Shown here in pieces: positions 13,450 through 17,038 of a stretch of DNA of 64,000 nt. Position 1 is the first letter of the stretch. Each line of letters opens with the position of its first letter. The notes under the pieces are model-generated. The model saw nothing but the letters and a program-made list of their open reading frames with translations. It was not told where the DNA came from and ran no database searches. Source of the stretch: Desulfomarina profundi (GTDB lineage: Bacteria > Desulfobacterota > Desulfobulbia > Desulfobulbales > Desulfocapsaceae). The stretch is from contig NZ_AP024086.1 of NCBI RefSeq assembly GCF_019703855.1, forward strand, positions 186,001-250,000. Reading direction: 5' to 3'. The translations under genes were made by a program, and so were the position numbers.

Positions 13450-13509
13450 TTTTTCCTTTCTCTTTTGAAGAGGTTTTTTTCAAATACTGTATTATAAATT
13501 ACTTATAGT

Positions 13510-13526
13510 TTTAAGGCTACCTTAAA
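13510..13526. promoter_or_regulatory. Inverted repeat between icd and the selenoprotein gene
   Basis: TTTAAGG-3-CCTTAAA, perfect, in the divergent promoter region and 20 bp from a TATAAT-like -10 that reads toward icd. Candidate regulator site; no regulator can be assigned. Confidence 0.35.
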
Positions 13527-13592
13527 GCTCTTCTGGATCATCTGCGGTTTTCTGCAGAGAAATTCCCCGTTCTGGTATACTTGGTGAAAGAT

Positions 13593-13838
13593 ATGAGTAA
13601 GCTTATTTGTTATTGTTTTAATTATTCGGTGAAAGATATTGAAGAAGATGTGATTAAAAACGGCAGATCTATGATTCAGGAACGAATCGTGCGGGAAAAA
13701 AAAGATGGAGCCTGTCAGTGTCATACCAGGAATCCCTCGGGTAAATGATGTCTTGCCGATGTTCACCGTGTTGTGAGCAATGTCATGAAAAGAGAAGGGA
13801 TCCAAAACATCTCTGGACTTCAATCAATTGTTCGGTAA
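13593..13838 (+). CDS. Small [2Fe-2S]-type selenoprotein read through UGA, 81 residues
   Basis: Reading from ATG 13593 gives MSKLICYCFNYSVKDIEEDV, an IKNGRSMIQERIVREKK segment, GACQCHTRNPSGK, then an in-frame TGA (13746-13748) followed by CLADVHRVVSNVMKREG to a TAA at 13836-13838. The pattern CYC...CQC...NPxGxxCL is that of small BFD-like/CopZ-N-type 2Fe-2S proteins. As I recall, these usually have CCL where this gene has UGA-Cys-Leu, and one such family is annotated as a 2Fe-2S (seleno)protein (Csac_0668 type). The conserved sequence continues beyond the TGA, so it is best read as selenocysteine. A hairpin follows the UGA at SECIS distance. GGTGAAAG lies just upstream of the start. Likely a redox or metal-transfer protein. 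SelA/B/D genes are not in the window. Confidence 0.8.
13746..13790 (+). promoter_or_regulatory. Candidate bacterial SECIS element
   Basis: Just after the in-frame UGA, GTTCAC (13761-13766) pairs with GTGAGC (13773-13778) around the 6-base loop CGTGTT, which starts about 18 bases after the UGA. Spacing and a G/U-containing apical loop fit SelB-binding SECIS hairpins; the lower stem is weak, so the fold is a prediction by eye. Confidence 0.5.
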
Positions 13839-13909
13839 ATGGTCAGGGATACAGCATCATCGCACGGTCGCAGTGGTCGCAGAGTCGGACAGGTGTGATC
13901 GTGCCCTTT

Positions 13910-16900
13910 TTAAACCCATTTTCTGGTTTGACCCAGTTTCTTTAAATCCAGGAGGTATTGTTCGGATCTGTCAAGGTAGAAAGAGAGAGGTTTGGAGAAA
14001 TTTTTACCAACAAGACCATCAACAAAGAACTGACTTATCTCTCTGTATCTTTTCAGGACAAGCTGTGAACGATAAAAAATCAGCCATTCCTCTTCTGTCA
14101 TCTGTTGGAAAATAATGGTCAAAGCCTTATGGGCCCGCGGTTGATACAGCCAGAAATACATCAGGTCCAGAGCATTCACGATAATAAATTTTTCCTGTTC
14201 CCTCGCCTCATAGTTCAATGTTTCCATAGTCATTTTAGGTGACTGTAGCATTTCAAGTACATCTTCCTCCGGAAAATGTACCTCCAACCTGGCAAAAACC
14301 GCAAATAACTGAGAAATTTTATTTCTGTATGCCACAAGTCTTGCCTGAATATTTGCCTGTCTGTCTGCCAACCCTTCAATAACAGCTGCAACGCAGTCAG
14401 ATGCAAATTTGGAAATAATTGCAGCCCATTTCTGCAAAACCATCGATATATCTGGAATACCGGTAAACTGTAAAACAAATCCAATAAGAATATTCAATAG
14501 AACGGCAAGTGGAATTGCCAGAATAGAACGGAAAAAATTCCCGGCAGCGGCGGCTTTTGGCAAGCCGCGGAAAATATTATGTCCGGAAATATACAAACCA
14601 TTGGCAAGTCCCATAACCGAATAAAGTAAAATCGGATCAGAGGCGACAGTTATTCCCATAGTCTCTTTAAGCAGAATTGTTTTCACAAGGTAGTCAAGAA
14701 GCGGAACAGAAAAACCTGTGTACAGTAGTGAATCGGCAATACGGCTCCAGCTGACCAGTGAATTCCATGGTAAAAGAGGTGAGCGTCTCATGCCGCCCCC
14801 GCCAAGAACCGATTGAATGATATTTCGCGTACCGGTTATGCCAAACCAGATAAAAGCACCGCAATAGGCAAGCAGCCACCAGTCTTTAGTCAGGCTGAAA
14901 GTGAGAAAAGCGGGAATAAATCCAACAATTACTTTAAGACTGTTCTTCAGGTTGGTGTTCAGGTATTTCAATGAAGCTCTAACCCGTTTTTCATTTTTTT
15001 CTTCCCCGGTTTTTTTGCCGGCACCAGCGGGTCGCCCTAAACCGCCGAGAGTTGCGATATTACCATGGGTTCCAGGATGAACAAGAAATCCGTCAAGTTG
15101 CCAGTCCTGCCAGCGCTGGTCAATAGATCTGTTGATCAATGGTATTTTCTTGTATGATTTATTTTTTCCGGTCATGCCGGAACGGTCATAACATCGGCGA
15201 TGGAAGTTTCTGGTGAGCAGGGCGCTGATGGGTATAAAAGACCGTTCCTGTCTGACAACAGCTTCTTTAACAGTACGGCGAGATCCTGCAGGCAGGGTAT
15301 CAACCACTACCAGTCCCATGCCATGCTGATGTTCTGCCTGTCCCGTTGAACCGGAGCCGATTCGGGAGCCAAGCATTCTTTTCAAATAATAATTGTGAAA
15401 TGACTCGAGGTTGTACAGTATCTCAACCAGTTGTTGCTTCCGGTTAAGCATCTTCTGCAGCTGCTCTTCACCCTGTTGTTTTTCAGGTTTTCCAGGAGGC
15501 AGGGTCTCAATGTATTCTTTCTGATTATGGCACTGTTCTTCAAAATCCCAGATAATGGCACGTACACATCTCTTCAAACTGATTACATTATCATCGTTAA
15601 GGGCTGTCTGGAGATCATTAATAATGGAATAATGCTGTTCAGGACTTTTGAGATCAACAGCTTCACCAGCCACACCTTTTTCGCCGATAATCACATTTGA
15701 ACTCATGCCATGGGATGCATCTTTGAGATTGTAAGCTTCAATATGGGTAATCATTCCTTTGCAGGTATAGAGAAGTTCTAATACATCCTGGGCTGAGAGA
15801 TTTCCGAGGTTGAGGGAAAATCTGGAACTTGAATGTAAAGCCTGCAGTCTGCGCAACAGTGCTTTTGGTTTTAAGCGGAGTAATTCAGGAAGATCCTCGC
15901 TTTCACGCGGTCGGTTCGGGTCGTGTAGTTCAGGATTTTGTCCCGGCAGAAGAAACTGTTCAATAATTGTCTCAACATTCAGTTCCCAAAGGTCTTTTAT
16001 TCTGTCGTTGCCCTGTTTTGCATCGACGGGGGAAGATGTTTGTTTGAGATATGTAAACAGTGTGTTTTGAATAAATCGTGCCAGATGCAGGATCGATGGT
16101 TGTCCTGCCCCGACGAAGGCGAGAAAATCAGCACTCTTCATCACAGGAAAAGAAATTTTATACTCATCATTTATCCACTTGCGATGCCTGTTATTAAAAA
16201 CTTCCAAAACCTCAAAAACGTATTTTTGCTGATACCTGGAAACGGAACGCCCTTCTTCCATCAGTTTTTTTACTGCATCCTGCTTTAAAAATTTCAGAGA
16301 AGCCCGGTTCGCATTAAACCCATGAGGTTCCCAGGTAAAACGGACATACTTATCCCGGAAACGACAGGACATTTCGATACCCACCTGAATTTTGACATCG
16401 AGGATAGCGCTGGCCTCAATCAACTCTTCGACCACTTCTGGACTGACAAAATTATAATAGACAACTTCAAGGAACCTGATACCTTTGATCCAGGCATCCA
16501 TAACCAGGTGCGTAGGTGATTTGCGTCCTTTGGTGTTGGCGTCATGTACACGATCATCAAAGGCATACTGGTTCCACTCTTCGGGCATTTCCAGTAGATG
16601 ATATTTTGAAAGCTCTGCTCTTACCAGCCGGGGGTTCCCCGTGGATACCATACGAAAATCATGAGCCAGTTTCAGTTGCTGAAGTTCGTTGTCGGAACTT
16701 CGAAGCAGGTTTTTCATGATCTGTATCAGAACTCTGGCAGTGTTATACTTGTATCTGGAAGTTGATGATAAGAGAACCTCATCCCGCAGCGAGCGTAGAG
16801 CTTTAATACGATCACTGGCCTTGCCGCTTTCAAAAGAACCGAGCAGACTGGCTATGGCATACGCAATGCGCAACCCCTGGGGAGCGGCCATTTCCTGAAT

Positions 16901-17038
16901 ACCCTGTGGATGCATATGTTCACCAAGAAGTACCCGCAGTTCTGAAGACTTGTTTCCCTGTTCTAAAACATCTCGTACAATTTGCAGAAGCTGGTAATCG
17001 TTTTTATCAAAAAAGATGGAAGCGGGTTTATTTTTCAT
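13910..17038 (-). CDS. Large membrane protein of unknown family, 1042 residues
   Basis: I do not recognise it. Residues 1 to about 670 look soluble and helical. They include a stretch (DDRVHDANTKGRKSPTHLVM, then IRFLEVVYYNF and later KIQVGIEMSCRF) faintly like a PHP or amidohydrolase fold, but without a full metal-ligand set. Residues about 700-900 hold several hydrophobic segments (VIVGFIPAFLTFSL, LLAYCGAFIWFGITG, SILAIPLAVLLNILIGF), one with a GGGGMRRSP loop. The last 150 residues are soluble and charged. The start is at 17038. It stands alone and ends convergently with the selenoprotein gene. No gene context hints at function. Confidence 0.8.
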   Translation of the reverse strand: MKNKPASIFFDKNDYQLLQIVRDVLEQGNKSSELRVLLGEHMHPQGIQEMAAPQGLRIAYAIASLLGSFESGKASDRIKALRSLRDEVLLSSTSRYKYNTARVLIQIMKNLLRSSDNELQQLKLAHDFRMVSTGNPRLVRAELSKYHLLEMPEEWNQYAFDDRVHDANTKGRKSPTHLVMDAWIKGIRFLEVVYYNFVSPEVVEELIEASAILDVKIQVGIEMSCRFRDKYVRFTWEPHGFNANRASLKFLKQDAVKKLMEEGRSVSRYQQKYVFEVLEVFNNRHRKWINDEYKISFPVMKSADFLAFVGAGQPSILHLARFIQNTLFTYLKQTSSPVDAKQGNDRIKDLWELNVETIIEQFLLPGQNPELHDPNRPRESEDLPELLRLKPKALLRRLQALHSSSRFSLNLGNLSAQDVLELLYTCKGMITHIEAYNLKDASHGMSSNVIIGEKGVAGEAVDLKSPEQHYSIINDLQTALNDDNVISLKRCVRAIIWDFEEQCHNQKEYIETLPPGKPEKQQGEEQLQKMLNRKQQLVEILYNLESFHNYYLKRMLGSRIGSGSTGQAEHQHGMGLVVVDTLPAGSRRTVKEAVVRQERSFIPISALLTRNFHRRCYDRSGMTGKNKSYKKIPLINRSIDQRWQDWQLDGFLVHPGTHGNIATLGGLGRPAGAGKKTGEEKNEKRVRASLKYLNTNLKNSLKVIVGFIPAFLTFSLTKDWWLLAYCGAFIWFGITGTRNIIQSVLGGGGMRRSPLLPWNSLVSWSRIADSLLYTGFSVPLLDYLVKTILLKETMGITVASDPILLYSVMGLANGLYISGHNIFRGLPKAAAAGNFFRSILAIPLAVLLNILIGFVLQFTGIPDISMVLQKWAAIISKFASDCVAAVIEGLADRQANIQARLVAYRNKISQLFAVFARLEVHFPEEDVLEMLQSPKMTMETLNYEAREQEKFIIVNALDLMYFWLYQPRAHKALTIIFQQMTEEEWLIFYRSQLVLKRYREISQFFVDGLVGKNFSKPLSFYLDRSEQYLLDLKKLGQTRKWV

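Follow-up and report, generated by a model that had tools for sequence, protein, structure and literature searches.

A predicted selenoprotein gene in Desulfomarina profundi encoding a stand-alone CopZ/BFD-like [2Fe-2S] domain

Background

A predicted selenoprotein closely resembling the one considered here has been listed in two reviews. Table 1 of PMC13188914 gives '(2Fe-2S)-binding protein (copper chaperone CopZ family) form 1' with cd10141, the motif GxUC and the accession WP_245779778.1, and PMC9312934 lists the same predicted selenoprotein as '(2Fe-2S)-binding protein (CopZ family) form 1', the motif being ungiven there. For form 1 the latter review, published in 2022, cites PMC2398784 (its reference 64); in the main text of PMC2398784 the terms 'CopZ', '2Fe-2S' and 'copper chaperone' are all absent.

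The gene described here lies in a window of 64,000 nucleotides, the whole stretch of DNA that was analyzed. Like the published CopZ-family form 1 it is a predicted selenoprotein gene with one selenocysteine (Sec), a GxUC motif (here GKUC) and a putative CopZ-like Fer2_BFD domain. Because two reviews list form 1, the newer one with GxUC, the gene appears from its sequence to belong to an already predicted selenoprotein family, being likened to form 1 by motif and description. The published representative of form 1 may be either the short stand-alone form or a member of a second family with the motif GRUC (L166-L169, see below). Our main reading, to which we assign a probability of about 0.9, is that the predicted product is an 81-residue selenoprotein consisting of a stand-alone CopZ/BFD-like [2Fe-2S] domain, with a UGA codon that would be decoded as Sec by means of a downstream hairpin.

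Reading frame and in-frame UGA codon

An earlier note, made from the letters of the sequence, had described a small 2Fe-2S selenoprotein hidden by an in-frame UGA. When the sequence was re-read, the frame and its coordinates, U52, the motifs CYC (C6/C8) and CQC (C41/C43), the NPSGK-UGA-CLADV stretch and the length of 81 residues were all found as claimed. The following features define the gene:

13593..13838, + strand: predicted selenoprotein gene, 81 codons including Sec52, with a TAA stop at 13836-13838
13593..13838, + strand: predicted stand-alone CopZ/BFD-like [2Fe-2S] domain, from homologs, NCBIfam matches below cut-off and a structure model
13746..13748, + strand: in-frame UGA, predicted Sec52 of the GxUC motif (GKUC), a Cys codon in homologs

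Translation of 13593-13838 on the + strand gives MSKLICYCFNYSVKDIEEDVIKNGRSMIQERIVREKKDGACQCHTRNPSGK-U-CLADVHRVVSNVMKREGIQNISGLQSIVR, followed by TAA, and the UGA is codon 52 of the 81-codon frame. In the standard-code list of open reading frames of at least 40 aa, the only frame at the UGA has 55 residues and ends there. At the gene a pattern scan for promoters and terminators found none, an Rfam scan of 13500-14000 gave a single match far below the gathering score, and a scan of viral_contigs confirmed no relative.

Under translation table 11 the frame ends at the UGA, and if this were a true stop the product would be a protein of 51 residues (55 from a TTG start) and the similarity downstream a remnant. 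We consider this very improbable. In 30 aligned rows, comprising the window copy and 29 relatives' genes, codon conservation goes on 3' of the UGA, and both the selection on the downstream stem and the complete Sec machinery of the genome, described in the next section, speak against a stop as well. The UGA column itself is invariant in all 30 rows, as are C6, C8, C41, C43, N47, P48, G50, C53 and L54. According to the earlier note the family pattern continues past the TGA, where related proteins have Cys; the continuation is real in the 30 rows, but near relatives mostly carry Sec rather than Cys at that position.

A search of 97 related genomes, the own genome included, returned 48 matches in 44 genomes, and 45 of these 48 contain an in-frame TGA. 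The remaining three are without it: the matches in G013 and G080 and, in G055, one part of a match that was split. Run against 395 genomes of the phylum, a profile of the 30 rows hit 82; 56 of the 58 profile matches above 66 bits hold a TGA, the exceptions being G150 and G183. That Cys homologs exist could be taken to mean that the TGA is a sequencing error or a mutation of a Cys codon in a single genome. However, dozens of other assemblies show an in-frame TGA, and in the 29 aligned relatives' genes it stands in the same column; this recurrence refutes such an explanation, the probability of which we put close to nil.

Four genomes contain genes of a second family, also short but divergent, in which an in-frame TGA accompanies the motif GRUC (L166, L167, L168 and L169, in G472, G292, G196 and G362, respectively); its Cys counterparts are L170, L172 and L173.

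Cys forms of the studied gene were collected by scanning named genomes for a pattern that contained CC, so that Sec forms were outside its reach. The best 80 of 136 confirmed Cys-form loci have CC at the Sec position, and among these 80 the genomes are titled Acidobacteria, Nitrospira, Methanoperedens, Bdellovibrionota and others, with titles of many other phyla represented. Homologs lacking both Cys and Sec at position 52 had been named as evidence against a selenoprotein; the homologs inspected carry one or the other and thus do not refute it. The 80 Cys loci (best of 136) yielded 75 distinct full 51-nt rows for the synonymous-shuffle test described below and 79 rows for a tree. From both analyses L154 and L158 were left out for mismatch to the motif pattern, as were the second gene copies L129, L134, L136 and L149. 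The motif-filter counts of 57/57 (three of them second copies) and 80/80 are partly circular because the filter demands Cys. A tree was computed from 63 columns with 54 Sec and 79 Cys domains, the bootstrap being unsettled and the same-phylum Cys forms G150 and G183 left out; in it the Sec rows make up one side of a branch with support of 98/97.

Decoding machinery and downstream hairpin

The Sec machinery that had been predicted to lie outside the window was found in the host genome, a single contig of 4.31 Mb. It comprises a tRNA-Sec (74.9 bits, anticodon TCA, i.e. UCA), selA (634.6 bits), selB (364.5 bits) and two selD genes (L159 and L160), both over cut-off with 369.9 and 342 bits. Each of the two selD genes contains one in-frame TGA. 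A genome devoid of such machinery had been named beforehand as evidence against the selenoprotein, and this check did not refute it.

A selA match was obtained in 81 of the 97 relatives, in 36 of the 42 TGA-carrying relatives and in 359 of the 395 genomes of the phylum; since selA is nearly ubiquitous in the phylum, its presence does not discriminate and is no positive argument. The six TGA carriers in which the selA search gave no match are G004, G011, G017, G028, G049 and G081. Four of these (G011, G028, G049 and G081) have a tRNA-Sec over cut-off; in them selA may either be unusual or have been missed by the search. The tRNA-Sec search gave none over cut-off in G004 and G017, which are drafts of 590 and 230 contigs.

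A hairpin with a GU-containing loop, which had been proposed to follow the UGA at SECIS distance, is present:

13761..13778, + strand: bacterial SECIS-type hairpin, six pairs, from 13761/13778 to 13766/13773

Its apical loop (13767-13772) reads CGUGUU, which contains GU, and the spacing between UGA and hairpin is 12 nt. Judged by folding energy, the window hairpin does not differ from dinucleotide shuffles (z -0.14); what sets it apart is only the comparison with synonymous-codon shuffles and the covariation between relatives' genes, both given below. In the ungapped alignment of the UGA plus 48 nt (30 rows) a stem is found at columns 16-22/27-33, with pairing in 93.3% of 210 cells and both sides changed in 17 cells. 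None of 500 shuffles reached the observed covariation score, percentage paired or count of double-changed cells; two of the five structure measures, namely pairs with a double change (126/500 shuffles) and further pair types (153/500), were unexceptional. Sliding the partners against each other destroys the pairing of the stem, and RNAalifold returned nearly the same stem.

As the hairpin sits in coding sequence, synonymous codon randomization was used as the control. In Sec genes (n = 54) the mean z was -2.62, with 5.85 of six pairs formed compared with 4.04 expected, whereas in Cys homologs (n = 75) z was -0.06, with 2.77 pairs compared with 2.67 expected. All six pairs were intact in 46 of the 54 Sec genes versus none of the 75 Cys genes, and eight Sec genes were without at least one of the six pairs. 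The window copy has the six pairs complete and a synonymous-shuffle z of -2.46. This comparative evidence supports a SECIS function of the predicted hairpin.

Relationship to CopZ-type and BFD domains

The best curated match is NF047645 (CopZ_Nterm_CC), with 57.9 bits against a cut-off of 100 and an E value of 1.3e-15 over positions 86-137 of 138. The gene shares the C-terminal part of this Cys metallochaperone family with its NPSGxCC, but differs from it in having a predicted Sec rather than Cys, in being short and stand-alone and in scoring below the cut-off. For NF045877 (CopZ_Nterm_CU), i.e. the Csac_0668 family or form 2, the score was 26.8 bits (cut-off 190); the domain and a Sec within an adjacent Cys pair are shared, but the published motif of that family is CU, whereas the order here is UC. 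All 30 rows match both NF047645 and NF045877 at E 1e-3. Pfam Fer2_BFD scored 12.8 bits against a gathering score of 26, and the same model gave 27.2 bits on the relative L174. When a full-length Cys CopZ was sought throughout the own genome, the sole match was the studied gene itself, with a sub-cutoff score of 53.2 bits.

The nearest solved sequence is PDB 2HU9 (profile E 5.9e-4), deposited as 'Mercuric transport protein periplasmic component', which we take to be the N-terminal domain of Archaeoglobus fulgidus CopZ. Its NPSGRCC aligns to NPSGKUC, and the CYC, the Cys ahead of NPSG and the adjacent-Cys position all align. Unlike the gene product, the 2HU9 chain has 130 residues, about 70 of them ahead of the match, and Cys at the Sec position. 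The predicted structure model (mean pLDDT 85.6) had entries of the bacterioferritin-associated ferredoxin Bfd (4e6k, 6e6r) as its top fold matches. These were weak, with Foldseek E values of 2.4 or worse, and the best one gave a VIA Z of 5.9 over 53 residues at 19% identity. Bfd, unlike the predicted gene product, is without Sec.

Genomic context and possible roles

The window copy is flanked by a divergent gene with a Pfam match to isocitrate/isopropylmalate dehydrogenase and by a convergent open reading frame of 1042 residues. The latter (13910-17038, - strand) has no Pfam match at E 1e-3. No ars- or mer-type neighbour lies beside the window copy, and a metal role of this copy is therefore extrapolated from relatives.

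Among the 102 nearest open reading frames at the 54 Sec loci, nine encode ArsP_1 permeases, at eight loci (L137, L139, L143, L144, L146, L151, L153 and L046; six of the eight are from one genome family), and six encode TauE. Neither of the two ArsP_1 permeases that were tested reached the NCBIfam cut-off for SaoE or for SO_0444. At other Sec loci there are genes resembling arsC, arsR and merR as well as a permease that scores over the ArsG-family cut-off. At the eight ArsP_1 loci the permease gene shares the strand of the Sec gene and ends 33-57 nt ahead of its CYC codons, and several of these loci have ArsC- or TauE-type genes nearby.

In the relative L174 (G234:C167:1-4000, frame 3-530, + strand) an HMA domain is fused to the GxUC domain. 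UxxU metal-binding selenoproteins are a listed family (NF041115), and the HMA part of L174 scored 50.3 bits against the UxxU metal-binding (seleno)protein family, with a cut-off of 95. L174 is a putative triple-Sec protein, in which GMT-U-MS-U replaces the CxxC of HMA; at the start of the contig its frame is still open. Among five genomes of the order of G234 the HMA(UxxU)-GxUC fusion was found in G234 alone, and a search of the own genome for the UxxU HMA family gave four sub-cutoff matches, none with an internal stop. Cys-form CopZ domains were also seen in one open frame with MerA (L162), MerT-HMA (L098) and MerF (L112); in L162 the MerA part may have an internal start. A literature search on Sec-dependent organometal (Sao) systems yielded nothing useful.

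The context in some relatives suggests, in part, that this family handles metals. A plain electron transfer role, as in a Bfd-like ferredoxin, or a role in thiol redox chemistry would suit the selenoprotein too: BFD domains carry electrons, Bfd entries head the fold matches and 46 of the 54 loci are without an ArsP_1 neighbour. Against such a role stand the HMA fusion, the MerA, MerT and MerF parts in one frame with Cys homologs, the ars/mer-like neighbours in some relatives and the best curated names, which are those of CopZ-type metallochaperones. We regard it as a serious candidate, to be given somewhat less than an even chance. A wider proposal is that this gene, together with its relatives, constitutes a selenium-dependent module of soft-metal(loid) trafficking, in which the vicinal Sec-Cys pair next to a [2Fe-2S] cluster would capture or reduce Hg, As or Cu and feed ArsP-type permeases, with L174, a predicted triple-Sec chaperone, as the extreme case; this is speculative and, on balance, unlikely.

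Cluster ligands and proposed mechanism

The candidate cluster and Sec sites are located as follows:

13608..13616, + strand: CYC (C6, C8), predicted first two [2Fe-2S] ligands, invariant and aligned to positions 75/77 of the 2HU9 chain
13713..13721, + strand: CQC (C41, C43), both invariant in the 30 rows
13731..13751, + strand: NPSGK-Sec-Cys with the predicted vicinal Sec52-Cys53 pair, from aligned ranges

Going by the aligned sequences, C6 and C8 would be the first two cluster ligands. C43 is likely the third, C41 being the less likely ligand because L175 has Ser in its place. Cys53 is the likely fourth ligand, with Sec52 beside it. In the alignment with Bfd the range begins with model residue 3 opposite Bfd residue 1 and closes with model residue 69 opposite residue 57. 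At the C-terminal helix of Bfd this amounts to an offset of 12, and with the Bfd ligand numbers that we assume, which include Cys41, the offset would place C53 rather than U52 on Cys41; the placement is weak, as it is derived from the range ends alone. It nevertheless argues against Sec52 itself as the fourth ligand, in a selenolate-ligated cluster. In the 2HU9 chain positions 118 and 119 are both Cys and either may be a ligand, which leaves room for such a cluster, although we think it improbable. A literature search for the cluster ligands of 2HU9 and Bfd, which included PMC12363616, gave no confirmation.

If C53 is the fourth ligand, Sec52, as the residue next to a ligand, would remain available for binding or reducing a soft metal. 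In the mechanism that we propose, the hairpin at 13761-13778 would recruit SelB with Sec-tRNA(Sec), and the UGA at 13746 would be read as selenocysteine. The [2Fe-2S] cluster would be held by C6, C8, C43 and C53. Next to C53, Sec52 with its selenolate would provide a soft-metal(loid) or redox site, at which an ion of Cu, Hg or As may be bound or reduced; the metal would then be passed to efflux or reductase partners. The part of this proposal that goes beyond decoding, namely the four-Cys cluster, the site at Sec52 and the handing over of metal to partners, is tentative, and we would not back it at even odds.

Conclusions

Dozens of related genomes hold similar genes with an in-frame TGA. Annotation with current models would probably miss the gene, because the list of open reading frames stops at the UGA and the NCBIfam and Pfam cut-offs are not reached. 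The gene offers a small and simple test bed for the role of selenium beside an iron-sulfur cluster.
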